A program made the translations under genes and the position numbers. Positions 33,818 to 55,032 of a DNA stretch of 64,000 nt are shown here, in pieces. Source of the DNA: a virus; IMG/VR virus record IMGVR_UViG_3300046507_000371, positions 117,436 through 181,435 of that record. One strand, written 5' to 3'. Each line of letters starts with the position of its first letter. Positions within the stretch are counted from its first letter, which is position 1. The notes below the pieces were generated by a model. The model was given only the letters and a program-made list of their open reading frames with translations, ran no database searches and was not told the origin of the DNA.

Positions 33818-33830
33818 CACATTACTCTAA

Positions 33831-34035: not shown

Positions 34036-34042
34036 ATAAACT

Positions 34043-34456: not shown

Positions 34457-34608
34457 AGTTCTCCTCTATCTTTCATTTCCTGCATTACTCGAAGGACCCT
34501 TGCTCGCAGAGCAGCTTGGAACTCCTGCTCTCTAAGCAAGGCACGTTCAAACGGTGCCATCTGTCTACGTCTGTTCCATTCGATGAACCAAGCCTTAAGC
34601 TTTTTCAT
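34453..34608 (-). CDS. Small basic helical protein (51 aa)
   Basis: Arg-rich 51-residue helix (KKLKAWFIEWNRRRQMAPFE ... RARVLRVMQEMKDRGEL). Its TGA overlaps the pth2 ATG, so the two are coupled. It may bind RNA. Confidence 0.55.
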   Translation of the reverse strand: MKKLKAWFIEWNRRRQMAPFERALLREQEFQAALRARVLRVMQEMKDRGEL

Positions 34609-34620
34609 ACGAACCTTTGT

Positions 34621-34705
34621 TGGTGAGTCAGGAAGGATTTGAACCTACGTACCCGGAGGGATCGCTTTTACAGAGCGACGTCTTTAACCACTCGACCACT
34701 GACCC
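34621..34705 (-). tRNA. tRNA-Tyr(GTA)
   Basis: Class II cloverleaf: acceptor GGGTCAG/CTGACTC, anticodon arm TCGCT-CTGTAAA-AGCGA with anticodon GTA, long variable arm TCCCTCCGGGTACG, discriminator A, CCA encoded. Confidence 0.92.
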
Positions 34706-34709
34706 TTTG

Positions 34710-34880
34710 TTAATCTTTAGAAGGATACGGTTTCCAGCCTGGATTGGCCTTATGAAACGCATCATTCAATTCTTTATACATCTTTGTAGCTTTGTCTGGC
34801 TCATTCGCCAGAAGTGCCTTGAACAGGTCGCTGTTCGTTGACAGGAGCATGTCCTTGTACTGCATCGTCTTCGCTGACAT
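34710..34880 (-). CDS. Small helical protein (56 aa)
   Basis: ATG 34880 follows AGAGAGG. The product (SAKTMQYKDMLLSTNSDLFK ... NDAFHKANPGWKPYPSKD) is helical. It overlaps 34801-34977 by 80 bases in another frame. No family recognised. Confidence 0.5.
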   Translation of the reverse strand: MSAKTMQYKDMLLSTNSDLFKALLANEPDKATKMYKELNDAFHKANPGWKPYPSKD

Positions 34881-34977
34881 CTGGACCTCTCTCATCCATA
34901 AGTCTCAATTTTTCAAACAACTCTTTACGTTCTTCGTAGAGTTGCTGGAGCTTAGCCTTGGTTGTTTCCGATAACAT
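34801..34977 (-). CDS. Small charged helical protein (58 aa)
   Basis: ATG 34977 follows AGGAAGGTGGC. The first half is a charged coil (ETTKAKLQQLYEERKELFEK) and the second half a disordered Gly/Pro/Gln tail. It overlaps both neighbours, which makes it less certain. Confidence 0.45.
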   Translation of the reverse strand: MLSETTKAKLQQLYEERKELFEKLRLMDERGPDVSEDDAVQGHAPVNEQRPVQGTSGE

Positions 34978-35272
34978 CTGCCACCTTCCTGTATTTCTTT
35001 ACAACGACTTCATACTCTTCCATTTCTGGGCATTCGATTTCTGGACCCTCGTATTCGAAAGGCATTTCATCCTGATTCTCAGTAGCACCTCTACTATAAC
35101 TAGTAAAGTAAACTTTGTCACCATGCTTGAATAGTAGATTATGGATAACTGACCACCGACTATTATCGACTACCTTATCGGAGACAATGTCAATCGGTTG
35201 TTCTTCAAATTCGTAAATGTCTTCGCGAAGAAGATCTTGAAGGACACGCTTAGGAAACTTCTTTACTGGCAT
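34952..35272 (-). CDS. Hypothetical protein (106 aa)
   Basis: An acidic 106-residue protein (PVKKFPKRVLQDLLREDIYEF ... PEIECPEMEEYEVVVKKYRK) with alternating charge. Start and stop overlap the neighbouring genes. No family recognised. Confidence 0.6.
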   Translation of the reverse strand: MPVKKFPKRVLQDLLREDIYEFEEQPIDIVSDKVVDNSRWSVIHNLLFKHGDKVYFTSYSRGATENQDEMPFEYEGPEIECPEMEEYEVVVKKYRKVADVIGNNQG

Positions 35273-35645
35273 TTGAAACAAGCCCTAATTCACGTTGGAG
35301 TTTAGCAAGTTGTTCGAGTTTCTTTTCCCGAGCAGCAGCTTCGTTTTTAACGCGGTTGGCTTCTATTGCAGCTTTACGCTGAGCCTTTTTACGTTCCGCT
35401 TCTTCTTGTTTCTTTTTAACTTCGTCCAAGAGCGATGCTACAGTCTCTCGTACGAAGACTTCGTGATTCATAGGGAATTCAATAAGCTTGTATCCCTTTT
35501 GCCATTGGTAATCGTGAAGGAGTTGAAATTCCTCCTGAGTCACAATGGTCCACTCAGTGATATGTTCGATTATCTTTCGATAACTTTCTTCTCTGTCATC
35601 CCATTGTTCGTCTGAGAAGATAATGGCGATTTTACGGTCAGCCAT
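35250..35645 (-). CDS. Coiled-coil protein (131 aa)
   Basis: The N-terminal half resembles a small alpha/beta domain (DRKIAIIFSDEQWDDREESY). The second half is a Lys/Glu/Ala-rich coil (EVKKKQEEAERKKAQRKAAI). It overlaps the next gene by 23 bases. Confidence 0.6.
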   Translation of the reverse strand: MADRKIAIIFSDEQWDDREESYRKIIEHITEWTIVTQEEFQLLHDYQWQKGYKLIEFPMNHEVFVRETVASLLDEVKKKQEEAERKKAQRKAAIEANRVKNEAAAREKKLEQLAKLQRELGLVSNASKEVS

Positions 35646-35658
35646 GAGAACCTCTTTG

Positions 35659-35746
35659 TGGCGGTAGCTATCCGAGTCGAACGGATGGACCTGTTACAGT
35701 CGGCAGTTTAGCAAACTGCTGGGTTAGGCCTCTCCCCCAAACTACC
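35659..35746 (-). tRNA. tRNA-Ser(GCT)
   Basis: Class II: acceptor GGTAGTT/AGCTACC, anticodon arm GCAGT-TTGCTAA-ACTGC with anticodon GCT, long variable arm, discriminator G, CCA encoded. Confidence 0.92.
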
Positions 35747-35754
35747 TATGTTAA

Positions 35755-35829
35755 TGGAGTCGCATATGGGAATCAAACCCATCTCTACACCGTGAAAGGG
35801 TGTTGACCTAATCGATAGTCGAATGCGAC
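35755..35829 (-). tRNA. tRNA-Glu(TTC)
   Basis: Acceptor GTCGCAT/ATGCGAC, anticodon arm ACACC-CTTTCAC-GGTGT with anticodon TTC, T arm ATGGG-TTTGATT-CCCAT, discriminator T, CCA encoded. Confidence 0.9.
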
Positions 35830-35837
35830 GTTGTTAC

Positions 35838-35928
35838 TGGAGGAAGATGCGTGGATTTGAACCCGCGAGTCCTTTCGGACTGTCACTTTTCAAGAGTGGT
35901 GCAATAAGCCAGACTCTGCCAATCTTCC
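35838..35928 (-). tRNA. tRNA-Ser(TGA)
   Basis: Class II: acceptor GGAAGAT/ATCTTCC, anticodon loop CTTGAAA with anticodon TGA, variable arm AGTCCGAAAGGACT, discriminator T, CCA encoded. Confidence 0.92.
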
Positions 35929-35939
35929 ATATTTGTTAC

Positions 35940-36015
35940 TGGCAACGGCGACAGGACTCGAACCTGTGACACACGGAATCAAAATCCGTTGTTCTACCAA
36001 CTGAACTACGCCGCA
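35940..36015 (-). tRNA. tRNA-Gln(TTG)
   Basis: Acceptor TGCGGCG/CGCCGTT with a T-T first pair, anticodon arm ACGGA-TTTTGAT-TCCGT with anticodon TTG, T arm ACAGG-TTCGAGT-CCTGT, discriminator G, CCA encoded. The weak first pair is a known GlnRS preference. Confidence 0.92.
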
Positions 36016-36016
36016 A

Positions 36017-36223
36017 CTAAACCTTTACAGGTTCTTTTAGTTCTACGCCGTTAAGATGGGTTGCTACTGCTTCGCCCGTCTCTTCGTCAAACTTGATTCT
36101 GATGCCTACTTCGTAGCAGACATACGCAAATTTGTAAGCGTCTTCTTTCGACAGCATTAACTCTTTTGCTTGATGATAGTTACTCTCTTTACTGCTATGC
36201 AAATAAATAGTTGTTTCTACCAT
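36017..36223 (-). CDS. Hypothetical protein, amber-terminated (68 aa)
   Basis: A 68-residue protein (VETTIYLHSSKESNYHQAKE ... VATHLNGVELKEPVKV) ending in TAG one base before tRNA-Gln. It is one of three TAG-stopped genes. Read-through would run into the tRNA, so TAG is a true stop here. No family recognised. Confidence 0.6.
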   Translation of the reverse strand: MVETTIYLHSSKESNYHQAKELMLSKEDAYKFAYVCYEVGIRIKFDEETGEAVATHLNGVELKEPVKV

Positions 36224-36233
36224 AATTATCCTT

Positions 36234-36312
36234 TGGTACGACTGGTCAGACTCGAACTGACAGGCTACTCGTTCTAAGCGAGCAAGGTATACCGGATTCC
36301 CTTCACAGTCGC
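36234..36312 (-). tRNA. tRNA-Leu(TAG), class I shape
   Basis: Acceptor GCGACTG/CAGTCGT, D arm AAGG...CCTT with a large loop, anticodon arm GCTCG-CTTAGAA-CGAGT with anticodon TAG (reads CUA), T arm GTCAG-TTCGAGT-CTGAC, discriminator A, CCA encoded. The variable region is only four to five bases, although leucine tRNAs normally have a long arm. Confidence 0.8.
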
Positions 36313-36318
36313 ATTATT

Positions 36319-36394
36319 TGGTGGAGAATACCGGGATCAAACCGGTCACCTCCGAGGTGCAAGCTCGGCGCTCTCTCAAATGAGCTAATTCCCC
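36319..36394 (-). tRNA. tRNA-Ala(TGC)
   Basis: Acceptor GGGGAAT/ATTCTCC, anticodon arm CCGAG-CTTGCAC-CTCGG with anticodon TGC, discriminator A, CCA encoded. The acceptor lacks the usual G3-U70. Confidence 0.9.
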
Positions 36395-36419
36395 ATAAAC
36401 TTTACTTATCGATGCTGTG

Positions 36420-36494
36420 CTCCGGCCCCGGGAATCGAACCCAGCTTTATATTGATTAACAGTCAATCGCCTACACCTTGCTTGCTCGACCGGA
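36420..36494 (-). tRNA. tRNA-Asn(GTT)
   Basis: Acceptor TCCGGTC/GGCCGGA, anticodon arm ATTGA-CTGTTAA-TCAAT with anticodon GTT, T arm CTGGG-TTCGATT-CCCGG, discriminator G. CCA not encoded. Confidence 0.9.
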
Positions 36495-36555
36495 ACAAAG
36501 CACCGATAAGTAAAAATGATTTTAATACGGAAAACTGAATTGTGTCAACACTTTT

Positions 36556-36816
36556 CTATCGACAAAAGTCAGGACGATGTAAAGCCTGCATAATAAGCTC
36601 CATATCTTCTGGTTTAGAATCGATGTTGAAACCCTCGCTTCTGCCGTATGTATATAGCTTTCCGTCGTTATCAGCACCGATATAACCGGCGCCAGTAACC
36701 TTGCCACCAGATGTTCCACTTCTGAAAAATAGAAACGCATCCTTGTGATACAACGCGTCCGGAAAAATAAGCGCATGCTTATCATTCACAATAATATACT
36801 TCATCCCCGTATCCAT
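36556..36816 (-). CDS. Hypothetical protein, amber-terminated (86 aa)
   Basis: An 86-residue beta-rich protein (KYIIVNDKHALIFPDALYHK ... GAGYIGADNDGKLYTYGRSE) ending in TAG. It belongs to a type of small phage protein I have seen but cannot name. GGGG lies seven bases before ATG 36816. Confidence 0.6.
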   Translation of the reverse strand: MDTGMKYIIVNDKHALIFPDALYHKDAFLFFRSGTSGGKVTGAGYIGADNDGKLYTYGRSEGFNIDSKPEDMELIMQALHRPDFCR

Positions 36817-36837
36817 GTCTAACCCCGTAGTATTATG

Positions 36838-37209
36838 TTATTTGAAAGTGACGTATGGTGGTTTAGTATATTGATACTTCATTCCATACTGCGTTATTTT
36901 GTGGCTGAAGTTATCCTTGCGTTCATCAGCAAGTTGAGCTTTCTGCTCTCTTAAAGTTTTCTGCTTAGGCCCGTGTCCAAGCCAGTTACCATTCCTAGTG
37001 CGCAAAACCTTAGTGTCGATCCACCATACTTTCATGATGGCCCACTCTCTGATATCCCGCTTAGGTGGTGCTTTGAACTTAGGACCTACATTATGCATAG
37101 GCTGTTTACAGGATGGGCAGATACTTGTTTCTTTGAATACATGTCTACAGTCGAAACAAGCGTGCTTACCCTTTCCTCCGCCTCTTTTCTTAGACGGTTC
37201 TCTGAACAT
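36838..37209 (-). CDS. Zinc-finger protein (123 aa)
   Basis: Two CxxC knuckles (ACFDCRHVF and ICPSCKQPM) ~14 residues apart form a zinc ribbon near the N-terminus, after a GGGKGKH start. The rest is basic and Trp-rich. It may bind DNA or RNA. Confidence 0.65.
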   Translation of the reverse strand: MFREPSKKRGGGKGKHACFDCRHVFKETSICPSCKQPMHNVGPKFKAPPKRDIREWAIMKVWWIDTKVLRTRNGNWLGHGPKQKTLREQKAQLADERKDNFSHKITQYGMKYQYTKPPYVTFK

Positions 37210-37454
37210 CAGTGATACGTTGGCTTCAAAGCCATACGTTCCTCTACCGGCATCGCTTCGATTTGTTTGCAGATTTCTTCGTAAGCTTCCGGGTCTTCTT
37301 GCTCAAGCTCTTCAAGATTAAGAGGCTCAGAGTCGGCAAAGAAAGAACCGTCTGCGACTGACTCTTCGATTTCTTTGATAATCCTTTGTGCTTCTTCTTC
37401 ACCGACTTCCTCTACGAGGTTAGCTAGAGCTTGGGGAGCGAACACTACTTTCAT
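37209..37454 (-). CDS. Acidic protein (81 aa)
   Basis: A Glu-rich helical protein (NLVEEVGEEEAQRIIKEIEE ... EELEQEDPEAYEEICKQIEA). Its ATG shares its last base region with the upstream stop. The strong negative charge suggests a DNA mimic or binding partner for a basic protein. Confidence 0.6.
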   Translation of the reverse strand: MKVVFAPQALANLVEEVGEEEAQRIIKEIEESVADGSFFADSEPLNLEELEQEDPEAYEEICKQIEAMPVEERMALKPTYH

Positions 37455-37456
37455 TT

Positions 37457-37600
37457 TTAGTCCCGTCCAAAAAAATTGGGATCACCATCGTCTTTAATGG
37501 AATCCTCGGGTACATCATCGGCCTTAAATAGCTGGAGATCACCGTCGTCTTTTAGCGACTTCCAACCCTCGTTTTCAAATACGTCTTTAAACAGATTCAT
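37457..37600 (-). CDS. Small protein with internal repeat (47 aa)
   Basis: ATG 37600 begins a 47-residue frame holding a repeat: SLKDDGDLQLF and SIKDDGDPNFF, ~19 residues apart. It overlaps the 131-residue gene upstream by 14 bases. The repeat supports translation. Function unknown. Confidence 0.55.
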   Translation of the reverse strand: MNLFKDVFENEGWKSLKDDGDLQLFKADDVPEDSIKDDGDPNFFGRD

Positions 37601-37982
37601 ACTTATTCAATACTTCTTTACTGAGATTGTATCTAGTAGCAATAATATACAATCCATCGAGCCACATATCAGGAGTATCCTCATCGTGAAGTGACTGAAG
37701 ACCAGATAGCACGATGCCTACTTCGTCTACGTTTTCAAACAATCCTTGAAGCTTAGGATAGGCTGAAAGAACGTGGCTTGAAGTATGATTCTCCATTCGT
37801 GGATCATAGAGGTCGTCAGGGATCAAACATCCTACCGCACACATCTTTCCGTTTTCTCCACGATATGCGCAGTCTGTAGTAAAAAAGCCAGAGTCTACAG
37901 TAACGGTGCTGGTACTCTGCTCCATCTGCGCCATAAGATGATCTGCAACTTTGTCAAACGTTTGTTGAACCGTCAAAGCCAT
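37587..37982 (-). CDS. Hypothetical protein with CAVGCLI core (131 aa)
   Basis: The centre reads CAYRGENGKMCAVGCLIPDD, similar to phage and bacterial small proteins of unknown role and comparable with the CVMCAAGW core at 25899-26291. The rest is helical. It sits below tRNA-Leu. Confidence 0.6.
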   Translation of the reverse strand: MALTVQQTFDKVADHLMAQMEQSTSTVTVDSGFFTTDCAYRGENGKMCAVGCLIPDDLYDPRMENHTSSHVLSAYPKLQGLFENVDEVGIVLSGLQSLHDEDTPDMWLDGLYIIATRYNLSKEVLNKYESV

Positions 37983-37998
37983 GATGACTCCAAATTGT

Positions 37999-38085
37999 TG
38001 GTCCGACTGACCAGATTTGAACTGGTACGCCCATTCGGGCCCGAGGGTTTAAGTCTCGTGCGGCTACCAATTACGCCACAGTCGG
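37999..38085 (-). tRNA. tRNA-Leu(TAA)
   Basis: Class II: acceptor CCGACTG/CAGTCGG, anticodon loop CTTAAAC with anticodon TAA (one A-C mismatch in the stem), variable arm GGCCCGAATGGGC, discriminator A, CCA encoded. Confidence 0.9.
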
Positions 38086-44140: not shown

Positions 44141-44150
44141 CTTATACCAC
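44141..44150 (-). promoter_or_regulatory. GTGGTATAAG promoter motif
   Basis: Sixteen bases after the pnkp stop. It starts the structured leader 43820-44137. Confidence 0.7.
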
Positions 44151-44165: not shown

Positions 44166-46586
44166 TTAAAGACGCGGATCCATTTCTTTCTCTTGGTTGA
44201 GTTGCGAGATCATCTTCACAATCAACTCAGTCATTGCAGGACCGTTGTCAGCCGAAAGCATCTTCGTTGCCAGTTCGAACTCCTTGATAGAGACCTTCAG
44301 TTTACCACCAACTCGCTTCTGCTTGCACAGTGCTTCGTAGCGACGTTTGTAGTCGAAGCCATAGACGAGAGTCAGGTAATTTTCATTCCGGACTTTCATA
44401 TACGGTGCTACGTCTTCAGGTCCGGCGAGAGGTTTAATGACAACACCCTCCATGCCGTGTTCGATAGTCAGTTCCTTGAAGAAGTTTTCAGCCATTTGCA
44501 GCTGGCTCTCATCATCGAGATCGATGACCAGCCAGTCATCCCCATTCACTTCATCGAATGAGTCAGCTTGTTCAACGCGAGTAAATACATTGCCATCGAT
44601 TTTCAGAATTGCAAACGGCTTGTAATATGGCTCGCCAGTTGCGGAGTACAGATTCAGCGTATCCGAAAACGTCTTCAGATCGTTCTCAAGCAAATCCTGA
44701 GCATCGATCTTCTGCTTAAAGTCAAGCTTAGCAAATTCTTCGTCCTGAGCAAGTGTCGAAAGCTCATAGTGTACAAGACCTTCATACGCTTTGAACTGCT
44801 CTTCAACAAGACCAGTACCAAGAGTCGTCCACGGCAGAAGCTCACCGTCCAGAATAAGTTCATCGAACGAATTCGGAAGGAACTTTTCTTCATACTCAGC
44901 AAGAAGCTTCTGAAGCATAACAGTAAGCTCTTCTGTCATGCGAATCTTGAATCCATTTCTGGAAACAAGGAAACACTTCTCCGGTTGACCGTGATACAGA
45001 TACGCCTGACAACGTGAGCCCATGTACTTCGGTTGAATAGCAACCTGATCTACACCCTTGTCTTTGAAGTACTTAAGACCAGCTTCAAGGCTTTCGATCT
45101 TACCTTCGGTTGACGGAGCCGGAGCCATCGTACCAGAAATGTACTTAATGCCGTTCTTCAGCGTACGATTCAAAAACTTCATGTCGTCTGGAGACAACTT
45201 ATAATCATAAATGCTGAAGGGACGCTCCTTCAAACCGATAGGTACGGTCAAGTCAGACTTCAACTCTTTTTGATGCTCGACCAGCGACTCGGTCTTGACA
45301 TCGACGTAAACATATCGATTGTTTTTGTACGAAAACGCAGTAAGCTTGTTACCGTACACTGCTCCGGTATCCAGGAAGATCTTGTTACGGAACTCAATCT
45401 TACCGGCATTGTGAGCAACGTGACCGAATACATGAATAGGATGGTTACGAACAGCCTGATCGAAGATGAACTTGTACGCTTCACGATAGTCTTTATCACG
45501 ACGACCGAAAAGATTACGCTGCGCCTTAAGTGCATCATTGCTCAGCTTACCCAGATACTTGTTTTCACAAGGAGCATGGGTTACATACACGGTTCGTATA
45601 TCCCGTCCAAATACTTTCAGGAACGGAGTAGAGTGATTGTCAAACAAGTCAACAAGCACGGCGGCAAGGTCAGGACGTTCCAGGAGAACCTTAAGTGAAG
45701 ACATATACTTAGCCTCCAGTTCAAGATCAGGATTTTTGATTTCGCCCTTGATACGCTTCACAGCGTAGCTCTCATGGTTTCCGTGAATGATACGGCCACC
45801 TTCGTCAACAAACTTTGAAACCAGCCGAAGCATGTTCTCCGTGTCATTGCCTTTGTCTAGATAATCACCTACAAGAACGTTGATACTGTCCTTAGGCAAC
45901 TTCTCCAGCATTTCAGTAAGACCCTTAACGTGCTCATGGGTATCACCGATGATGTTCAGCTCTTTGTTCGAAGTCAAGTACAAGCTGCTCTTGGCATAAA
46001 CATCGAGGTCTTTGATTTCAACTTCGATATCAGCCCAGTACTTCGGATCACGTTCACGGATACGGATGTTTCCGTCGTGTTCTTTTCGGCCAAGGTTAGG
46101 AAGAACGTGCTGCTTAAAACGAGCTGCACTGCTGTCTACTACTAGCTTTTCTTCCGGCGTAGATTCAGACGAATATGACTTATTGGTGTACTCGAAAGTA
46201 ACCAGTTCAGTACGATACTCGTTGGTTTCCGCAAGAGTCCTGACTTTCTTTCGGAACTCGTCGTTCATGCCAGTCGTATCAACGATCACGAACTCGCTGT
46301 TGACAGGGAACATGATCGCAGCTTCAAGTTTCGCCATCAAGACCTTAAACGCGGCCTCTGAAGCCTCCGCCATGAGCGGGGAATACCGATGGAGGTTCTT
46401 ATGGCCGTAAAGGCTCTCACGCTCGGAATCGGAGCTGATAATAGGAATTGCACAGCTCGCTCCAAGCCCTGCTTTGGCCATTTCTTCGCCAAGCGCAAGT
46501 TGAAGTTGGTGTGAGAACGTGCTCTTACCGCACATCGAAGGTCCGACGAGAATAAAAACGGTATGGAGCTTAGTTTCGATTTTCAT
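44166..46586 (-). CDS. pnkp: Bacterial-type Pnkp: RNA 5'-kinase / 2',3'-phosphatase / ligase
   Basis: Pnkp heals and seals broken RNA. The 806-residue protein has all three modules: a kinase P-loop GPSMCGKST at 15-23; a metallophosphoesterase with GDTHEH (214-219), GDYLDKGND (240-248), GNHE (269-272) and FGHV (387-390); and a ligase adenylyltransferase domain with the nucleotide-binding Lys in QPKYMGSR (about 520). Length fits the bacterial enzyme (~850). Its start overlaps the hen1 stop, the standard bacterial pair. It would repair tRNA cut by host anticodon nucleases. Confidence 0.93.
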   Translation of the reverse strand: MKIETKLHTVFILVGPSMCGKSTFSHQLQLALGEEMAKAGLGASCAIPIISSDSERESLYGHKNLHRYSPLMAEASEAAFKVLMAKLEAAIMFPVNSEFVIVDTTGMNDEFRKKVRTLAETNEYRTELVTFEYTNKSYSSESTPEEKLVVDSSAARFKQHVLPNLGRKEHDGNIRIRERDPKYWADIEVEIKDLDVYAKSSLYLTSNKELNIIGDTHEHVKGLTEMLEKLPKDSINVLVGDYLDKGNDTENMLRLVSKFVDEGGRIIHGNHESYAVKRIKGEIKNPDLELEAKYMSSLKVLLERPDLAAVLVDLFDNHSTPFLKVFGRDIRTVYVTHAPCENKYLGKLSNDALKAQRNLFGRRDKDYREAYKFIFDQAVRNHPIHVFGHVAHNAGKIEFRNKIFLDTGAVYGNKLTAFSYKNNRYVYVDVKTESLVEHQKELKSDLTVPIGLKERPFSIYDYKLSPDDMKFLNRTLKNGIKYISGTMAPAPSTEGKIESLEAGLKYFKDKGVDQVAIQPKYMGSRCQAYLYHGQPEKCFLVSRNGFKIRMTEELTVMLQKLLAEYEEKFLPNSFDELILDGELLPWTTLGTGLVEEQFKAYEGLVHYELSTLAQDEEFAKLDFKQKIDAQDLLENDLKTFSDTLNLYSATGEPYYKPFAILKIDGNVFTRVEQADSFDEVNGDDWLVIDLDDESQLQMAENFFKELTIEHGMEGVVIKPLAGPEDVAPYMKVRNENYLTLVYGFDYKRRYEALCKQKRVGGKLKVSIKEFELATKMLSADNGPAMTELIVKMISQLNQEKEMDPRL

Positions 46587-47893
46587 GCTTGATCCTTGTT
46601 CTTAGTTACTACCACCATCGTCGAAGTAGCAATGTTATTTACACTATCACCGATTCCTTGAACAGAAATAGAGATTGCATGACCTTCCGAAACATTCCAG
46701 AACCAGTCACCGAATTCTTTAAGGCCCGGCTCCCACTTGTGATCATCATGACGGAACTGTGTTTCGTCCATCAGATAGTTCACATTGAATTCCTTGTTAG
46801 GAACCGTGAGAATCAGCTTGTTGAAGTTAGTCTTCAGCACGGCTTGAATCAGCTCTGCTGCGACATCCTTTTCCATGTGTTCAAGCACTTCAGTGATGAG
46901 TACATCAGCTCCATCGAATAGAGCGCTGCAATCGTCAATTGATTCAGGAGTTGCTGCTTCTTTGAAGGTGATATTCTCAACTCCTCGACCACTGGCTTTC
47001 CCCACGGCGTTCTCACGTACTTCGTCATCCGCTTCATACGCAAGGATTTGTTCATACTTTGCACTGAGCGGGATCGAATAATTGAGTTCGCCGAACCCAA
47101 TGTCAATGAGGACCGACCCTCCTCCCAAATGCGGGAAGATAGCCTCTTTACGTTGACTGAGAGTGTCCCCGTGCCAGAGGTTAATACTGGGCGTATCGAG
47201 CAACGGCTTGTTTTTAGCAAAGGTTTCACGATTCGTAAACACATTCCGTTTAAAGAGGTATCGGATGAAGTAAGGTGCATCGATGCGATTAATTGCATTG
47301 ATGTACTTTTCAATGATATCTCCCTTAAGGTTGACGTAAATGCTCTTTGTCGTAACGCAGAACATCAAGAAAATAACCATTGCTGCATTCAGAAGATGAT
47401 GAACACTAGGTCCGACAATGCGAACTTTGTATGCATGACCAGAAATCAGTTCTGCATGAAAGCTGTAGCCTTGATCGAAACCAAACGGCCCATTGAAATG
47501 TTGCTCCATGTGCCTAAGCGTGCTTGCACTGCGAATCTCAACCGTAGTTTCGAGCCATGCGCTAAAAGGAACACTAGCATCTTCTTCCTGATGTTCTTTG
47601 AACGCAGTTGCCAGGCAGTTCGTCATCAGGCTAATCGGAAGGTACGGCGAAGCATAGCGAGTACGATCAAGATACTCAAACTCCTGGTCCCGCCCTTCGG
47701 CAAATGAGCAGTGCAGAGCATGATCCTTGAACCACAACCTAAAAGCTTGGTCTCCTTCTAGAAACCATCCGTACACTGAACCTTGTCGGATGGACTTCTT
47801 AAACGGATCTTTCGATTCACGAATCGTTGCGGGGTTTTTCTGAATGACCCAAGAAAACTTCGGGTTACTAGACCCAAGAGTAAGCACTGACAT
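46583..47893 (-). CDS. hen1: Hen1 RNA 3'-terminal 2'-O-methyltransferase
   Basis: Hen1 methylates the 3' 2'-OH of cut RNA before Pnkp seals it, making the junction resistant to a second cut. The 436-residue protein has the bacterial N-terminal domain that supports Pnkp ligation, then the methyltransferase with DIGFGE (264-269), EVLEHME (335-341) and RHDDHKWE (381-388), whose Glu and His residues bind the catalytic metal. ATGA overlap with pnkp. Key residues look intact. Confidence 0.92.
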   Translation of the reverse strand: MSVLTLGSSNPKFSWVIQKNPATIRESKDPFKKSIRQGSVYGWFLEGDQAFRLWFKDHALHCSFAEGRDQEFEYLDRTRYASPYLPISLMTNCLATAFKEHQEEDASVPFSAWLETTVEIRSASTLRHMEQHFNGPFGFDQGYSFHAELISGHAYKVRIVGPSVHHLLNAAMVIFLMFCVTTKSIYVNLKGDIIEKYINAINRIDAPYFIRYLFKRNVFTNRETFAKNKPLLDTPSINLWHGDTLSQRKEAIFPHLGGGSVLIDIGFGELNYSIPLSAKYEQILAYEADDEVRENAVGKASGRGVENITFKEAATPESIDDCSALFDGADVLITEVLEHMEKDVAAELIQAVLKTNFNKLILTVPNKEFNVNYLMDETQFRHDDHKWEPGLKEFGDWFWNVSEGHAISISVQGIGDSVNNIATSTMVVVTKNKDQA

Positions 47894-47935
47894 TATTTAA
47901 CCTTTTTGGAAGAGAGGTTTATGGACGACATAAAT

Positions 47936-47953
47936 GATAGGACGAATCCTATC
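47936..47953 (-). other. UUCG hairpin at the start of the hen1-pnkp leader
   Basis: GATAGGA-TTCG-TCCTATC lies twelve bases below the 47965 promoter, at the expected 5' end of the hen1-pnkp mRNA. A hyperstable tetraloop there may protect the message. Confidence 0.6.
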
Positions 47954-47964
47954 GTAATACTTCA

Positions 47965-47974
47965 CTTATACCAA
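47965..47974 (-). promoter_or_regulatory. TTGGTATAAG promoter motif for hen1-pnkp
   Basis: In the 83-base gap above hen1, overlapping the last bases of the preceding region. It makes hen1-pnkp an independent transcription unit. Confidence 0.75.
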
Positions 47975-47976
47975 AA

Positions 47977-48153
47977 TCATAGGTATTGTGTGAAAGGTCC
48001 AGTTGGATCTGGTTGGCGAGTGAAGGTTGCTGGGCCTTTAAAGGCGTCTTCATAATAACCGCAAGACTTACATTCTACCCAAAGAGGTGCATTGACTAGA
48101 CGGTGTTTATTCAATTCGCCGCATTCAGGGCATTCTTCTAGGATATTGGTCAT
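47977..48153 (-). CDS. Zinc-ribbon small protein (58 aa)
   Basis: Four cysteines in TNILEECPECGEL and WVECKSCGYYED form a zinc ribbon. ATG 48153 overlaps the nucleotidyltransferase stop (ATGA), so the two are coupled. The protein may help the transferase bind RNA. Confidence 0.65.
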   Translation of the reverse strand: MTNILEECPECGELNKHRLVNAPLWVECKSCGYYEDAFKGPATFTRQPDPTGPFTQYL

Positions 48154-49154
48154 TGCAGTTTCCACATTTCGTAAGACCGTTTTACATCTTCGGTCAGTTG
48201 TTCCAATTTCAGACTATCTACCATTCTCTGAAAGGCTTCTCTGTCTTCACCTCTGTAATCAGACATGAAGTTTCCAAGCTCTTTACCGGTAAGGCCAGTC
48301 CACTCAGATACGTTATTACCGTTGAACTTATCCTTAACACGCTCTGCTCGGAAATAGTCAAGCGTGGCCTTGATAAAGTTCAGACCTATCTCTTGTGGCT
48401 CAGCTTCAGAAGCCAGCAGGATGCCGAGATCTTTTGAACCTCGCTTATCATTAAGATGTTTATTATCCATCCACTCCAAGAAAAGCATATACGTATTGCG
48501 TTTCTTATCACGGACTCGGCCTACAGCATTACGATTTTCCAACAGGTAATTCCACTTAGTGAAGTACTTGCTTGAGATTACGTATTCAAAGATAGCTTCC
48601 AGGTTATCAAATCCCAATGCATACCTGGAAGGGTCGTATCCGAGAAGATCGAGGGCCTTTTCAAAGTTCTGAGTGATACAGATTTCTTTGACAAGAGTGG
48701 TTCCGACGATGTACTTATACCAGAGACCGTCGTGGCCAAACTTGAGACCGAGCCCATGAGCAGTCTGACCGATAAGATTACCAAGATCATTGAAAGCAAA
48801 ATACTTAAAGGCAAAGTCATGGATTTCTCTAGGGACGGTAATGAAATCAATTTGAAAAATGGTTCGCTTAAACATCAAACCAGAAATGTCTAAAGCGAAA
48901 GAGATAACGTTTCCGTTAGTGTGAACCTCAGGAGAGTTAAGAGCTTTTTCGCAAAACTCTCTAAGAGTCTTTATCTCAATACCTGAAATCAGAATGTCAA
49001 GATCACCAAAACTCTCTTTCTCTCTATATGCCGGAATAACTGAAATGATTGCGTCTGGAAAAGCTTCTTTAAGAACAGTACTCGTACCTTCTGCTACATA
49101 GTCGTAGTACTGTTTCTCCAGACGGACTGCATTGCTGATTGCATTACCGCCCAT
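48150..49154 (-). CDS. Pol-beta-fold nucleotidyltransferase (334 aa)
   Basis: The N-terminal part contains KESFGDLDILISG (the G-S/D-x-D signature of pol-beta-type transferases) and a later third acidic position in IFQIDFITV. The remaining ~200 residues are helical. Such enzymes add nucleotides to RNA or proteins (CCA-adding, poly(A), antibiotic or toxin types). Next to pnkp-hen1, a role in repairing tRNA 3' ends is plausible but not shown. Confidence 0.75.
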   Translation of the reverse strand: MGGNAISNAVRLEKQYYDYVAEGTSTVLKEAFPDAIISVIPAYREKESFGDLDILISGIEIKTLREFCEKALNSPEVHTNGNVISFALDISGLMFKRTIFQIDFITVPREIHDFAFKYFAFNDLGNLIGQTAHGLGLKFGHDGLWYKYIVGTTLVKEICITQNFEKALDLLGYDPSRYALGFDNLEAIFEYVISSKYFTKWNYLLENRNAVGRVRDKKRNTYMLFLEWMDNKHLNDKRGSKDLGILLASEAEPQEIGLNFIKATLDYFRAERVKDKFNGNNVSEWTGLTGKELGNFMSDYRGEDREAFQRMVDSLKLEQLTEDVKRSYEMWKLQ

Positions 49155-49161
49155 GACTTCC

Positions 49162-49380
49162 TCACTTTTTTGCAGCTACAAGATCTGAACCAAACTTTAC
49201 AACGATAATTACGAGTGCAACCGGAAGGGTGATCGGCCAGAACAGACAAGCAAAGCCAAGCAGAAGTCCATACACAAACATATGAATCGTGTGGTAAGGC
49301 AACTGACGTTTCTTGTTAAGACCAAGAGCTACCGTAAAGGCAGCTACCCACAACAGAATTGCGAATAACAGATAGTCCAC
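49162..49380 (-). CDS. Small membrane protein (72 aa)
   Basis: Two hydrophobic segments (YLLFAILLWVAAFTVALGL and IHMFVYGLLLGFACLFWPIT) with a third weaker one, and a basic KK end. AGGA lies just below its stop as the ribosome site of the next gene. Confidence 0.6.
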   Translation of the reverse strand: MDYLLFAILLWVAAFTVALGLNKKRQLPYHTIHMFVYGLLLGFACLFWPITLPVALVIIVVKFGSDLVAAKK

Positions 49381-50106
49381 TTAATTCTCCTTGACGGCCT
49401 TATCGACCTTATCCAAAATAGTAAGCACCTTGTCAATATCAAACTTGTCTTCAGTGCGAGCACCGGATTCAAGATCGATCCAAACGAAGCCTTCTTCCAC
49501 ATCTTTGTGTTGCTGTAGCAATTCGAACACTGTTTGTTCTACGTTGTCTACGTTGATTCCACCTGCATAACCTACGTCATACCGGCTAGCCCAAGGTTCT
49601 GGAATATCCGGCCATCCTGCTTCCTGCCAGGAAATACCTCTGCCGCCAGAAGCGTCAAGGAGAATTTTCAGATCAGGAGGTACATCTTCATCGAACATTC
49701 CATTGAGAAGAATGTCGGTGTTCTGACTATACTGGACGATTACAGTATTCTTCTCAGCCTTTGCGAATTCAAAGATCAAGTCTTTGTTTTCCGCAGTCAA
49801 GAAATTGAACTGAACTGCGTTGTACCCTAGCGTTACTTCGTTTTCGAAATGTTTCCAAGAAGACAGAAACGCCTCTACCGATTTGCCACAAAGATGCGCA
49901 GCAAGAGTGTAGTATTCACCTCTATCGTTCGTTGCCCAGTACAGCTTCTCCCTCCACTGTGCTGTTGGGTAACGAGGTTGGCCCTCACGGGATTTAGAAA
50001 ATAGAATGCCCCATTCTACGAACGGGTATTCACGACCGATATCATCAAGAAGATTTGGATCAACCGCATCATCTGCACCGGTAATAGTAACGCCTAGTTC
50101 AATCAT
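49381..50106 (-). CDS. Phosphoribosylanthranilate isomerase-like TIM barrel
   Basis: The C-terminal part reads VGYAGGINVDNVEQTVFELL and VWIDLESGARTEDKFDIDKV, which parallels the TrpF segments GGL-x-x-x-NV and D-x-SSG-x-E-x-x-x-G-x-KD. The N-terminal GVTITGADDAVDPN also fits the TrpF start. TrpF acts in tryptophan synthesis, so a phage relative may have another substrate. With a tRNA-Trp-like suppressor in the genome, a link to tryptophan is an appealing but unproven idea. Confidence 0.65.
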   Translation of the reverse strand: MIELGVTITGADDAVDPNLLDDIGREYPFVEWGILFSKSREGQPRYPTAQWREKLYWATNDRGEYYTLAAHLCGKSVEAFLSSWKHFENEVTLGYNAVQFNFLTAENKDLIFEFAKAEKNTVIVQYSQNTDILLNGMFDEDVPPDLKILLDASGGRGISWQEAGWPDIPEPWASRYDVGYAGGINVDNVEQTVFELLQQHKDVEEGFVWIDLESGARTEDKFDIDKVLTILDKVDKAVKEN

Positions 50107-50108
50107 TG

Positions 50109-50558
50109 TTATTCCTTTGGAATTGCTGATACTGCTAATTGATCTACTGCTTCATTCCAGACATTACCGGAATGACCTTTGACCCATTTCCATGTCAAAT
50201 TCTTATGCTGTTCACAAACTCTGTCTAACCGTTCCCATAGGTCTCGATTTTTAACTGGTTGTTTATTTGAACCGATCCAGTTCTTTGTCTTCCAACCTTT
50301 AATCCATTCTGTAATTCCTTGCAGAACGTATTTGGAATCCGTTATTACAACAATTGATTCAGGCTTGCCATCTAGGAAAGATTCTAGGCCTGAAATTGCA
50401 CCCATTAGTTCCATGCGATTATTGGTCGTATCTTTCTCTCCGCCACTTCCACGTTCCAACATTCCATTTGTTTCGCTTACTGCAATGTACCCATACCCGC
50501 CTGGCCCTGGATTACCAGAGCAGGCTCCATCGGTGTAAATGGTAACCTGCTTCGTCAT
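50109..50558 (-). CDS. rnhA: Ribonuclease HI
   Basis: RNase HI cuts the RNA strand of RNA-DNA hybrids. The 149-residue protein has IYTDGACSGNPGPGG (first Asp), NNRMELMGAISGLE (Glu), VITDSKYV (Asp) and KGHSGNVWNEAVDQLA (His and last Asp; the usual NERAD is NEAVD). Length is normal. It probably removes primers or R-loops; its start touches the polymerase stop. Confidence 0.92.
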   Translation of the reverse strand: MTKQVTIYTDGACSGNPGPGGYGYIAVSETNGMLERGSGGEKDTTNNRMELMGAISGLESFLDGKPESIVVITDSKYVLQGITEWIKGWKTKNWIGSNKQPVKNRDLWERLDRVCEQHKNLTWKWVKGHSGNVWNEAVDQLAVSAIPKE

Positions 50559-52267
50559 TATGCCTTCTTCTTAAATAACATATCGTTAATTGCTTCTTGC
50601 GTTACGCCGCGATGTACTTGTTCTACTTGACCCCAGTTAAAGCCGATTTCACCTTCAACTCCAATCGGAAGATCAAGCCAATCAAAGTTTTCGACAGGCC
50701 ATTCGTTCATATAGTAGAACGCTGTTTCAATTACTTGTGCTGCATTCTCAATCGGAATCTCAAACTCAATCGAATCGTACACAGTACAGATTGACTTGTT
50801 ACGGGGATCAAGTTTCTTGATTGCTTCATTCAGATTAGCGAATGTAACTAGACCAAGAGTTGAAGTCGCACTTTGAATCCGTACGTTCTGAGCATTTCGA
50901 AGAGATGCGTTATACGCTGCAGTCTTCTTGAATACTTCTTGTGCTACATACTCATGCTTGTACTGACCAAATGGAGTCCACACCTTCTGATTCCAACGAG
51001 CCATGTTATGTGACTCCTCAATGTAGTCCTTAACTCCAGGATATGCATTGAAGTACATGTTGACCAGACGCTCAGCCTCGTCCTTCTCAATCGCTAGCTG
51101 CATTGCAATACCGCCGACTGACGAACCATACAAAATCGAGAACGTCAAAGTCTTAGCAACTTGTCGCATACGCTTGTATTCTTTGTTAAGCGCATTAGTC
51201 TTATCTTCAAGAACGTGAATGTAATCGTCGTACGGAATTCTCATCATAGCACTTGCGGAATAGGAGTGAAAATCAAGTCCCTCAGCAATTGCCTTCAGCA
51301 TATTCTTGTCTTTACAGATTGCTCCGAGAATCTTTACTTCCGCTGACGAAAAATCGAAAGCAATAAACACATTACCGGAGTCAACAGTATAACATTCCCT
51401 AACGTTGTAGCCATGTTTTGGCCGAGGTAACTGTGTAAGATTTGGGGAATCACCAGTGATGCGAAAACTACTAGTACCGAACATGTTATAGCTAGGATGA
51501 ATACGACCATCACGCTTAACAAAGTCTTCGACATACGTTTTGATGAACGTGTTATGTACACTGTTGATATCCTTTCTTTTAGCCATGTCTGCCAAGAACT
51601 GAAACTTGGGGTCTTCGGCAGTATATTGGTTGGCTAGTGGATTTAAACCAGCCAAGGTTAAGAGTGCAGCACCGTCAGTTGCATCGTCACCAGACTTCGT
51701 TTTAAACGGGGCAACAAACCCTAACTCTTCATAGAGCAACTTGCCGACTTCCGTGCCGGAATCAAGGTTAATACGTTTGCCTAATGCTGTGAAAATCTTC
51801 TCGTCAAATTCTTCAACTTCACGAACCATCTGCTCAGAGATCTTACGGTTACGATCTACGTCATAGACCATTCCGTTAATTTCCAAGTCAATGATGAATT
51901 CGTGACACATCATCTCTGTATTGACAATCGATTCGATAATCGCTGGAGCCTTGGCCTTAATTGGCGCTCCTGTCGGTCCTGCAATCTGAACTTCCTGCGG
52001 CTTGACCATTGCTGGCCATAAACCTGTCAGAACCTCTGACGTTACGATATTGTCGATACCTGCATATACATACAAGTCTTCGCTATCAAAGTCCTCGTAT
52101 GTACGGTAGATCTTCTTTTCTAATACCGGTTCTTCTACCTTTGGCTTAGGCTCTGCTTTCTTGCGAGTTTTTTTCTCTACTGGCTGTTCAACTACCGCTG
52201 CAACAATCTTCTCTTCTAGAATCTGCTCAGTTGACTTCTTTGCTTTTGGATCTACGCGCTTAATCAC
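50558..52267 (-). CDS. polA: DNA polymerase A, polymerase domain with exonuclease motif III
   Basis: This 569-residue chain holds the polymerase: motif A IAFDFSSAEVKI, motif B RQVAKTLTFSILYG and motif C CTVYDSIEFE, where the usual HDE is YDS. It starts, after a Lys-rich linker (EKKTRKKAEPKPK), with DLYVYAGIDNI, which matches exonuclease motif III (Y-x-x-x-D). So the exonuclease domain is cut between this gene and the one upstream. GTG start, overlapping the upstream stop by eight bases in the +1 frame. Confidence 0.9.
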   Translation of the reverse strand: MIKRVDPKAKKSTEQILEEKIVAAVVEQPVEKKTRKKAEPKPKVEEPVLEKKIYRTYEDFDSEDLYVYAGIDNIVTSEVLTGLWPAMVKPQEVQIAGPTGAPIKAKAPAIIESIVNTEMMCHEFIIDLEINGMVYDVDRNRKISEQMVREVEEFDEKIFTALGKRINLDSGTEVGKLLYEELGFVAPFKTKSGDDATDGAALLTLAGLNPLANQYTAEDPKFQFLADMAKRKDINSVHNTFIKTYVEDFVKRDGRIHPSYNMFGTSSFRITGDSPNLTQLPRPKHGYNVRECYTVDSGNVFIAFDFSSAEVKILGAICKDKNMLKAIAEGLDFHSYSASAMMRIPYDDYIHVLEDKTNALNKEYKRMRQVAKTLTFSILYGSSVGGIAMQLAIEKDEAERLVNMYFNAYPGVKDYIEESHNMARWNQKVWTPFGQYKHEYVAQEVFKKTAAYNASLRNAQNVRIQSATSTLGLVTFANLNEAIKKLDPRNKSICTVYDSIEFEIPIENAAQVIETAFYYMNEWPVENFDWLDLPIGVEGEIGFNWGQVEQVHRGVTQEAINDMLFKKKA

Positions 52268-53519
52268 TTTCTACTTCCTCTTCGTCTTCTTCAGTCTCTT
52301 CACCTTCTTCAGGTGCATTCTTAGTTAGCTTTGGTAATAGGTCTTCGTAACCACCCAGTCCAGTCCAAGGAACAATATCCCAGACTGCTGTTTTCAGCGA
52401 GTACGTACCCTGAGCCCCACTATCTAGACTGTGTAAAACTAAAAGAGTATCAAATGCCATATTCTTTACACGAACTTTTGTCGTGTGCCAAATATATAAG
52501 ATATCGAACTTTATGTTGTGGCCTACTTTTGGCCTATCGCTCTCTAGGAACAGTTTTACAAATTCCCAAGCTTCATCTGCGTTGTACATCTTATTCTCAC
52601 GATGCCACAACGGAATTACCAAAGCCTTTACTTGCTTGTCAACCTGATCTCTATATCCAAACTGAACACACAGAAGCTTTGCATTCTCAGCCAGTCCATC
52701 CAGACTAGTCGTTTCAGTATCTAGACTTACAATTGCATTTGCAGGAAGTTTAATCAACGTATTCATAAAATCCTTTACGTCGTCAAGGCTTCTCGCTACT
52801 CGAATTCGGTTCTCTTTATAGAACTTGATTGCTTCTTCAAGAGTAGGCGGTTTTAAATGCCCTGTAGCCATCGCTACGGCCTTCTTGAAGTCCCGGAGGA
52901 TCACGCCATACAACTCTTGACCCCAGAAGGCCCCAGAGGCGTTCTGACGAATCATCGTCAATGCTCTTGGATGAATTGTGATGATTACATTATCAATGTA
53001 CTCGCCACGATTACCCGTGTTACTGTGCTTCTTATATCCAAGTGCTTTAGTGACTGCTGTTGCCAGACTGATAATCACTTTAGGTTTGCAACGCTCTATC
53101 TCTTCTAAAAGATAAGGCTTGCATTTCATAAGCTTTGTTGCAGTCGGTGCTTTACCCTTTGGGAAGTCTTCTTCGTTAGGAGCACACTTAAGCAAGTTTA
53201 CAAGACGGTATTTCAAATCTCCGAATCCTGCTTGCTTGCAGAGATGGTGAATAATGTCTTGTTGAATCTTCTCTTGCTGTCCTTCTACTCTGTCCCACTT
53301 CCCAGCAGGTGCCGCATGGTCCTGAATGATCAGGATGTCTACTTCGTTTTGAGCAAGACGTACGTTGTTGTACGATTTGCATTTCAGCTTACAGACTTTG
53401 TCGCAATATGTTTGACTAATCTTGCTGAAATCTTCCTTGCTATGGATTGCCACTTCTACAGACGTTGTAATCTTTCTTTCATACAACTCGTTCAGTGGAA
53501 GATCTGAGATCTTTGCCAT
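52260..53519 (-). CDS. Uracil-DNA glycosylase-like domain fused to 3'-5' exonuclease
   Basis: The N-terminal ~210 residues resemble family 4 uracil-DNA glycosylase: cysteines at 39, 43 and 47 with C112, C133 and C144 that may bind an iron-sulphur cluster, LLKCAPN near 110, and ITIHPRAL near 180. The C-terminal part is a DnaQ/PolA-type exonuclease with DTET (267-270), GHNIKFD (333-339) and TYSLKTA. Motif III is missing and is found at the start of the polymerase gene. The tail is very acidic (EEGEETEEDEEEVESD). Confidence 0.8.
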   Translation of the reverse strand: MAKISDLPLNELYERKITTSVEVAIHSKEDFSKISQTYCDKVCKLKCKSYNNVRLAQNEVDILIIQDHAAPAGKWDRVEGQQEKIQQDIIHHLCKQAGFGDLKYRLVNLLKCAPNEEDFPKGKAPTATKLMKCKPYLLEEIERCKPKVIISLATAVTKALGYKKHSNTGNRGEYIDNVIITIHPRALTMIRQNASGAFWGQELYGVILRDFKKAVAMATGHLKPPTLEEAIKFYKENRIRVARSLDDVKDFMNTLIKLPANAIVSLDTETTSLDGLAENAKLLCVQFGYRDQVDKQVKALVIPLWHRENKMYNADEAWEFVKLFLESDRPKVGHNIKFDILYIWHTTKVRVKNMAFDTLLVLHSLDSGAQGTYSLKTAVWDIVPWTGLGGYEDLLPKLTKNAPEEGEETEEDEEEVESD

Positions 53520-53583
53520 TGTTTCTTTCTTCCGTTAAAACGTTATTATCTCATTGAACAGAAGGCTCAACAAGACTTGACTT

Positions 53584-54057
53584 TTAGTTGCTATAGTATC
53601 CTGAAACCAGCCATGCTGGTTCCGTGTAGCTTATACCATACTTCTCGCAGAAATTGCGCAGTCTATCGATCTCTTCTTGAGACACTTCCAGGTCCTCTGG
53701 ATCGAGCTTTGTGCAATCCCAGATTTCTCCTACTGATACCTTCTTTGAATACAGAATGTATGCAGGATATTCACTTGTGCCGTAGTGTTCTATTCCGACG
53801 CCTACATTTTCCAAGGCGTTATGCTTAGCATCCCAGTAAGCACAATACAACTCCTTGGTTTCTTCTGAATAATCTTCTGTTGGGTGCACTACTCCTAATT
53901 CTTTCAGAATCAAACTTTCAACAGCGTCTCCAACGCCATCGTAGTTTTCTTCTCCCACCGCTTCCCGAAGAGTATTTTCAAACTTCTCAAACTCTTCGTA
54001 GTCATCTTCGATACCCCCTAGATCAATACCGAAAACTAACTTTATATCTATACTCAT
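53584..54057 (-). CDS. Hypothetical protein (157 aa)
   Basis: A 157-residue acidic protein (IDIKLVFGIDLGGIEDDYEE ... PAYILYSKKVSVGEIWDCTK) with alternating strands and helices. No family recognised. It lies between thg1 and the UDG-exonuclease gene. Confidence 0.65.
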   Translation of the reverse strand: MSIDIKLVFGIDLGGIEDDYEEFEKFENTLREAVGEENYDGVGDAVESLILKELGVVHPTEDYSEETKELYCAYWDAKHNALENVGVGIEHYGTSEYPAYILYSKKVSVGEIWDCTKLDPEDLEVSQEEIDRLRNFCEKYGISYTEPAWLVSGYYSN

Positions 54058-54062
54058 CCCCA

Positions 54063-54896
54063 TTACTGCCCCGCATGAAAAAGTCTAAACGAACCTTGAC
54101 TCACAGTAAGCGACGTGAGCTTAGGAACATCATTAATAACTTCAATTGCACTTCTGATTACTTCTCTTGATGCTGGCTTGTTAGCGTCAGGAATCAACGA
54201 CCAAGTATGGTCATCAATCGCTACGAGCTTCTTAAACTTCTTGGTGAACGTACCTTGCCTAAAAGATTCAGGATAGTCGTGGAAGTTAATCCCTACTTGT
54301 CGAAGCATTTCAATTTTCTCAGCAGTGTTTTTATGAAGCAACTCTGAGTTGTTGAAGACCGTGTGCGCAGCCATGCTGACACTGTTCTTACGAGCATCCC
54401 ACTGACGCCATACAAAGTAATCATATGCTTGCTCCCATTTTGGGAATTGGAATACACGAGCATCAAAGACTGGACGTGCTGCGAATTTGCTCGGCAGGAA
54501 GCCTTGCAAGTAACTGTTAAAAATCACTGAGCACTTTGCAGCATAGACGCTTAGCCATTTCTGAACCTTGCCATCAAAGTTCAGCTGTGCAGTAGGATCC
54601 CTATTAAACCAAAGAAGACTGATCTCATCGCTCTGGTGGTATGCCAGATCAGGATTCAATTCCTTGATCAGATCATCCACTGTACATTGAAACGTTTGAG
54701 CCAGTTCTTTATCGTAGGGCTTGGTGAGACCCTTTGTGAATGTATGGAATGCGTTCCCATCAAAGCGAATGACAGTCGGCAGACCTGGCATCAAGTGTTC
54801 GCTGTTGTACTTCTTTTCATACCGCTTCATTTCGTCGCCAAGAGCGTTGAAATCAAGATGGCGAATTTCTTCTGTTATCTGTGTCTGTGTCATTTG
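54063..54896 (-). CDS. thg1: Thg1-like 3'-5' RNA polymerase
   Basis: Thg1 family enzymes add nucleotides in the 3'-5' direction, for example G-1 on tRNA-His, or repair truncated tRNA 5' ends. The 277-residue protein has VIRFDGNAFHTFTKG (first metal Asp), AYHQSDEISLLW (second acidic pair) and PVFDARVFQFP, all family hallmarks. I chose ATG 54896 rather than the longer frame, which would run through a terminator. Its presence alongside pnkp/hen1 points to tRNA repair. Confidence 0.9.
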   Translation of the reverse strand, partial: QMTQTQITEEIRHLDFNALGDEMKRYEKKYNSEHLMPGLPTVIRFDGNAFHTFTKGLTKPYDKELAQTFQCTVDDLIKELNPDLAYHQSDEISLLWFNRDPTAQLNFDGKVQKWLSVYAAKCSVIFNSYLQGFLPSKFAARPVFDARVFQFPKWEQAYDYFVWRQWDARKNSVSMAAHTVFNNSELLHKNTAEKIEMLRQVGINFHDYPESFRQGTFTKKFKKLVAIDDHTWSLIPDANKPASREVIRSAIEVINDVPKLTSLTVSQGSFRLFHAGQ

Positions 54897-55022: not shown

Positions 55023-55032
55023 CTTATACCAA
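55023..55032 (-). promoter_or_regulatory. TTGGTATAAG promoter motif at the edge of the inverted repeat
   Basis: Directly below the left arm of the 55063-55632 repeat region. It drives thg1 and probably the polymerase genes. Confidence 0.7.

Follow-up and report, generated by a model that had tools for sequence, protein, structure and literature searches.

A hybrid Hen1-Pnkp gene pair in a tRNA-rich phage contig, predicted to repair RNA

The final 64 kb of an IMG/VR virus contig of 181,435 bases (IMGVR_UViG_3300046507_000371; GC 44%), hereafter the window, carry genes for Hen1, Pnkp, a nucleotidyltransferase (NTase) and a Thg1-like protein between positions 44166 and 54896. An initial annotation of this locus described these proteins, together with a HAD protein, as an RNA repair island, which raises the question of which of the enzymes form a repair set and what they would repair. 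All five proteins are present, with family scores well above chance, the NTase being recognised by fold only. With a probability of about 0.7, we propose that Hen1 and Pnkp constitute a two-gene RNA repair machine that would sustain translation while tRNAs are being cut by host tRNases, the NTase being a likely accessory and the Thg1-like protein a possible one.

The Hen1-Pnkp pair and its subfamily

Pnkp combines kinase, calcineurin-like phosphatase and ligase in a single chain, with the hen1 gene adjacent, and the three activities are matched by the Pfam families AAA_33 (33.6 bits), Metallophos (38.6) and PNKP_ligase (96.7). The kinase motif GPSMCGKST, the phosphatase motifs GDTHEH, GDYLDKG, GNHE, VTHAP and GHVAH and the ligase motifs KYMGSR, EGVVIKP and MKVRN are all kept. 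The two genes overlap by 4 bp, and the reading of a complete Pnkp coupled to Hen1 stands. The N-terminal part of Hen1 matches Hen1_N with 168 bits (Pfam), and its C-terminal methyltransferase was detected by TIGR04074 and by fold. The motifs EVLEH and FRHDDH are present, and residues E335, E338, H339 and H385 are invariant in 25 homologues. A structural model of Hen1 (predicted local distance difference test, pLDDT, 90.3) matches full-length Hen1 of 4XRP with a template-modelling (TM) score of 0.77-0.80 and an E-value of 2.5e-30. With the catalytic residues kept, 2′-O-methylation by the phage Hen1 and Hen1-dependent sealing are predicted. As judged by dN/dS values of 0.067-0.145 between the window and its relative L009, Thg1, Hen1, NTase and Pnkp are under purifying selection.

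Two bacterial systems of this kind have been characterised: Pnkp-Hen1, with a calcineurin-like phosphatase and the ligase in the same chain, and Pnkp1-Rnl-Hen1, in which the phosphatase belongs to a different superfamily and the ligase is separate (PMC4411300). The annotation had called the window Pnkp bacterial-type. This is correct for its architecture but not for the classic bacterial subfamily, since scores against the curated equivalog models are far under the cut-offs (142.8 bits for Pnkp against TIGR04075, cut-off 750; 60.3 bits for Hen1 against TIGR04074, cut-off 340). In the PDB, the ligase is matched best in sequence by CgiRnl (E 5e-38), and Hen1 by its counterpart in the Pnkp1-Rnl-Hen1 complex (E 8.5e-28). 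Sequence comparison thus assigns the window pair to a hybrid subfamily, with the architecture of Pnkp-Hen1 and a ligase and a Hen1 that are nearest to those of Pnkp1-Rnl-Hen1.

The hybrid pair occurs in Bacillales chromosomes and, by our count, in ~17 phage lineages. Single-sequence scans with Hen1 and with the NTase retrieved close relatives only, and alignment-based searches were required. In trees where the window is represented by contig L008 (99.8-100% identical in these proteins), its relatives fall into a phage-only group, with support of 99/99 for the ligase and 98/88 for Hen1. In both trees, a true TIGR04075 member (777 bits) stands far outside the other sequences, as an outgroup on a long branch; the bacteria were sampled with a query biased towards phages. 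Judged from these trees, the subfamily is mostly phage-borne and diverse in phages, and the sampled bacterial copies belong mainly to one Bacillales clade.

Other phages build the set differently. In Vibrio phage RYC, sm033 and L033, Hen1 forms one protein with a kinase and a HAD phosphatase, and the ligase is separate; Hen1 accompanies a ligase-only protein in XacN1 and RAS14; and Pnkp is split in two in L020 and L035. The split in L020 (positions 11354-15473) lies within the phosphatase domain, with a 348-residue open reading frame (ORF) on the opposite strand between the halves, and looks like a mobile-element insertion. In L043 (8212-11038) the genes are rearranged: the Hen1 N-terminal domain stands alone as an ORF, and the next ORF joins the Hen1 methyltransferase to the ligase.

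Gene neighbourhood and candidate accessory enzymes

The window, whose genes lie almost throughout on the minus strand, also encodes class Ia ribonucleotide reductase, PolA, primase and RNase H (Table 1). The closest annotated relatives of PolA, at about 45% identity, are those of Salmonella phage Arash and Vibrio phages D69, D148 and D181. The gene order Thg1, uracil-DNA glycosylase (UDG)/exonuclease, PolA, RNase H, NTase, Hen1, Pnkp, NrdA, NrdB is kept in five related contigs, at protein identities of 60-100%; in L008 the contig end truncates Thg1.

Table 1. Features of the locus and of the rest of the window.
Feature	Coordinates	Strand	Remarks
Pnkp, 806 aa	44166..46586	(-)	kinase ~1-185, calcineurin-like phosphatase ~204-430, Rnl-type ligase ~470-806
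Hen1, 436 aa	46583..47893	(-)	N-terminal ligase-activating-type domain and 2′-O-methyltransferase
Zinc-ribbon-like protein, 62 aa	47977..48165	(-)	between NTase and Hen1; weak zinc-ribbon matches
Pol X-fold NTase	48150..49154	(-)	structural model and Foldseek; likely accessory
Replication block	50109..53519	(-)	not RNA repair
RNase H	50109-50558	(-)	replication block
PolA	50558-52267	(-)	replication block
UDG/3′-5′ exonuclease	52260-53519	(-)	replication block
Thg1-like (TLP) 3′-5′ polymerase	54063..54896	(-)	ORF 54063-54944, ATG at 54896; possible accessory
Motif after Pnkp	44141..44149	(-)	taken as end of Hen1-Pnkp unit; kept in L009, L010, L012
Motif TGGTATAAG upstream of Hen1	47965..47973	(-)	80 nt before Hen1; kept in L009, L010, L012
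Motif upstream of Thg1	55023..55031	(-)	
tRNA gene region, 22 tRNAs	17081..38085	(-)	possible clients
HAD_SAK_2 phosphatase-like protein	1198..1926	(-)	Pfam 68 bits

A recurrent motif, TTGGTATAAG-N4-TTG, was found in the contig. The window has 17 copies of its core, TGGTATAAG, where 0.29 are expected; they are minus-strand sites between 1009 and 57807. The whole contig has 39 copies, all of them on the minus strand and 32 of them between genes. From its position and strand, the motif is probably the phage's own promoter or the core of it. Because copies flank Hen1-Pnkp and precede Thg1, the stretch 44166-54896 joins two units: Hen1-Pnkp is probably a single transcription unit, and Thg1, the replication genes and the NTase probably belong to the preceding one. 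A single operon from Thg1 to Pnkp, suggested by a terminator-like hairpin near each end, was dropped in view of the promoter-like motif and of a terminator-like hairpin 3′ of Thg1 in L012. The idea of one RNA repair island of 11 kb in which five proteins act together does not survive this comparison, since RNase H, PolA and UDG/exonuclease lie inside it, the motif at 47973 splits the units, and the HAD_SAK_2 protein is 42 kb distant from the other four proteins. The membership of HAD_SAK_2 in an RNA repair set is unsupported.

The NTase matched no Pfam family at E-values up to 1 (the model of RlaP, the RNA ligase-associated Pol-beta NTase, was not checked by name). Its structural model (pLDDT 95.9) has DNA polymerases beta and lambda as best solved matches (Foldseek E 1.8e-7, TM about 0.4), and D51, D53 and D103, invariant in 56 homologues, correspond to the three catalytic carboxylates on the Pol beta palm fold. 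The NTase lies near Hen1 in all three lineages that have both genes (combined p = 0.0015, a value that, like the other linkage p values given here, assumes uniform gene placement and independent lineages and was computed from few cases after the adjacencies had been seen). In G023/L042, unrelated to the phage of the window, the two genes overlap, by 86 bp in G023, and they are also linked in G303. Elsewhere, a DRB0094-type RNA ligase lies within 7 kb of the NTase in eight loci, and an AAA_33 kinase is adjacent in four. By these sequence comparisons the NTase is a likely accessory of Hen1-Pnkp.

The Thg1-like protein (TLP) scores 96.5 bits against Pfam and 241 bits against PHROG. Its motifs RFDG, TKPYD and SDE match R28/D30, K43 and S74/D75/E76 of BtTLP, so that the three metal carboxylates, the activation lysine and the serine that mark a TLP are kept. 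The TLP and Pol-beta-fold assignments of the annotation are thus borne out, by Pfam and PHROG in one case and by structure in the other, and catalytic motifs, whose loss would have spoken against the annotation, are present in all four proteins of the locus. In the distant phage G020/L036, Thg1 stands between Hen1 and Pnkp, with a 7-bp gap after Hen1; in G022 it is a few kb away. The linkage is only suggestive, and Thg1 is a possible accessory of Hen1-Pnkp. A role of Thg1 in serving a phage tRNA-His was rejected, as there is no tRNA-His among the 22 tRNA genes or elsewhere in the contig. Editing of mismatched 5′ ends of phage tRNAs is likewise unsupported: by eye, the acceptor stems pair except for U1-U72 of tRNA-Gln.

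In L018 (8016-8561, by Pfam) and its relative L020 (7995-8537, by similarity), a third enzyme of this kind, a KptA-type RNA 2′-phosphotransferase, is encoded 1.4 kb upstream of Hen1. Hen1 and Pnkp themselves are adjacent or near each other in most phage lineages with both, and in Bacillales. Hen1-Pnkp is the core of the proposed repair set, and its recurrent association with RNA-end enzymes (NTase, Thg1, KptA) in unrelated phages is supported.

The 22 tRNA genes of the window comprise 21 found by ARAGORN and a tRNA-Phe (32737-32809) found by Infernal. A high-scoring tRNA at 29860-29935 has the amber-reading CTA anticodon. Amber recoding is unsupported: 21 of the 246 called ORFs stop at TAG, and allowing read-through lifts coverage from 91.4 to no more than 93.9%. 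A tRNA-like gene at 28627-28699 has an intact acceptor stem and an anticodon loop of apparently 6 nt, so that its anticodon is not assignable. The tRNA region also holds an SPFH/Band 7 protein (24864-25769) and, nearby, a 714-residue AAA ATPase (26341-28485).

Among the remaining genes, the 62-residue zinc-ribbon-like protein is present only in the relatives L008 and L009, and a 241-residue protein beside RNase H and the NTase (49381-50106), kept in all close relatives, has a single, sub-threshold match, to PRAI (TIM-barrel). An NMT1-like protein of solute-binding type is encoded at 4033-4956, within the phage genome. A NAMPT-like gene (11176-12582) adjoins a nucleotidyltransferase-Nudix gene (12627-13784). 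The two are likely an NAD+ restoring pair of the type discussed as jumbo-phage counter-defence; such pairing is considered among the responses of jumbo phages to NAD+ depletion (PMC7824862). The pair fits a counter-defence programme, without being proof of one.

Predicted repair and alternative explanations

By analogy with characterised homologues, repair by Hen1-Pnkp may proceed as follows. The kinase would phosphorylate the 5′-OH of a cut tRNA, and the calcineurin-like domain would remove the 2′,3′-cyclic phosphate or 3′-phosphate. The Hen1 N-terminal domain would bind the ligase and Hen1 would 2′-O-methylate the new 3′ end, after which the ligase would join the halves. The mended junction should resist re-cutting by nucleases that require the 2′-OH. 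As a likely accessory, the Pol X NTase might replace a missing nucleotide ahead of ligation; the Thg1-like protein, with no phage tRNA-His as client, could rebuild tRNA 5′ ends. We infer that the substrates in vivo are tRNAs cut by host defence nucleases, an assignment helped by the tRNA-rich genomes of these phages (21 of 28 Hen1/Pnkp phage records carry tRNAs), and both the anti-defence role and the cooperation of NTase and Thg1 are to be read in the same way. That the set would restore every kind of end damage, as the annotation had it, exceeds the evidence; the NTase substrate could be RNA or DNA.

Several observations weigh against the proposed machine. The NTase occurs mostly without Hen1: of 50 NTase records, one had Hen1. 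The NTase also has the fold of gap-filling DNA polymerases, and its neighbours in other phages also include DNA ligases. Proximity of Thg1 to Hen1 is not significant over eight lineages (p = 0.083), nor is the frequency of Thg1 significantly higher where Hen1 is present (8 of 24 lineages by our own grouping) than where it is absent (10 of 49; p = 0.26). The promoter-like motif at 47973 sets Hen1-Pnkp off from the NTase and Thg1, the hairpin of L012 lies behind Thg1, and replication genes intervene. These facts would suit a locus where only Hen1-Pnkp repairs RNA and the other two are chance neighbours drawn from replication and tRNA gene sets. We regard this as somewhat doubtful, though a serious competitor, because in distant phages the NTase overlaps Hen1 and Thg1 lies between Hen1 and Pnkp, and because of the p value obtained for the NTase-Hen1 link.

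The 22 tRNAs in the same region, and the frequency of tRNA-rich genomes among Hen1/Pnkp phages, would also be expected if the enzymes matured or quality-controlled the phage's own tRNAs rather than countering defence, with Thg1 mending 5′ ends and Hen1-Pnkp sealing misprocessed molecules. This is improbable given that the acceptor stems look complete except for the tRNA-Gln pair mentioned above, that many tRNA-rich phages, among them the close annotated PolA relatives, are absent from the Hen1 matches, and that three Hen1/Pnkp records above 150 kb (G010, G017 and W03) have one or no tRNA match. Repair of DNA is more improbable still. Pnkp, Pol X and ligase could make a single-strand-break kit beside PolA, RNase H and UDG, and the fold of the NTase, its replication neighbours and the DNA ligases near it elsewhere agree with this; however, the Hen1 family consists of RNA 3′-end 2′-O-methyltransferases and the active site is intact, the ligase is of Rnl type, and the linked Thg1 and KptA are RNA enzymes.

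Beyond the two-gene machine itself, a wider proposal can be made, which we consider speculative and unlikely in its full form: phages would carry a third, hybrid Hen1-Pnkp lineage as a modular kit, its accessory slot filled by Pol X NTase, Thg1 or KptA, that restores nucleotide-deficient tRNAs in a re-cut-resistant form and so defeats 'repair-proof' nucleases such as RloC, and the Bacillales copies would descend from the phage pool. The recurrent neighbours point to specific missing steps, namely a lost nucleotide (NTase), a damaged 5′ end (Thg1) and a leftover 2′-phosphate (KptA). As of 2015, it was not known which RNAs bacterial Pnkp-Hen1 mends in nature (PMC4411300); a phage member would allow substrate and benefit to be studied under defined circumstances, namely when the phage infects a host whose tRNA-cutting defence is known.

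Comparison with known systems

The window pair resembles Pnkp-Hen1 of the Clostridium thermocellum type (TIGR04075/TIGR04074) in having two adjacent genes, a Pnkp of kinase, calcineurin-like phosphatase and ligase, and a Hen1 of N-terminal domain and methyltransferase, but it lies far under the TIGR cut-offs. Pnkp1-Rnl-Hen1 of Capnocytophaga gingivalis (4XRP/4XRU) provides the nearest solved relatives of the window ligase and full Hen1, whereas its ligase is separate and its phosphatase is a T4-type HAD enzyme, in contrast to the single 806-residue chain with a Metallophos domain. That complex repairs ribotoxin-cut tRNA in vitro, and the product is resistant to re-cleavage (PMC4411300). The Hen1 and 861-residue Pnkp of Bacillales (Paenibacillus, Listeria, Brevibacillus), for which we found no described biochemistry in the literature, are identical to the window pair in gene order, domain order and phosphatase type, share 29-34% identity in Hen1 and are likewise under the TIGR cut-offs; they are, however, chromosomal and form one shallow clade beside deeper phage diversity. 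For the Thg1-like protein, the closest solved homologue is BtTLP of Bacillus thuringiensis, a tRNA 5′-end repair enzyme whose catalytic residues are kept in the window protein; the latter is a phage protein with predicted TLP activity.

Among phages, Xanthomonas jumbo phage XacN1, for which a PNKP, a Hen1 and two Thg1 genes were described in 2018, also combines Hen1, a Pnkp-type ligase and Thg1 and was interpreted in terms of tRNA repair. It differs in that ORF197 is a ligase only (404 residues), the kinase is the separate ORF199, and Thg1 is about 42 kb away. How jumbo phages repair RNA, with Thg1, SAK-HAD and Pol-beta NTases among the enzymes, was covered by a review in 2021. A phage Hen1-Pnkp with Thg1 is thus not new in outline, and the annotation's view of a distinct solution cannot be kept as a claim of novelty. 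As far as the literature searched shows, what is new, though part of it may be on record, is the hybrid single-chain subfamily and its diversity in phages, the repeated linkage of the NTase to Hen1, the occurrence of KptA or Thg1 as alternatives and the unit-defining motif.

Phage T4 repairs anticodon-cut tRNA with the kinase and phosphatase of its Pnkp and the ligase Rnl1. That system works without Hen1 methylation and has a HAD phosphatase and a separate Rnl1 ligase; the window pair is not of this type, which is defined by a kinase-HAD phosphatase, a separate Rnl1 and no methyltransferase. If the reading of Hen1-Pnkp as a tRNA repair machine is true, repair with 2′-O-methylation would serve as a longer-lasting counter-defence than that of T4 type, because a second cut of the mended tRNA at that site would be prevented.

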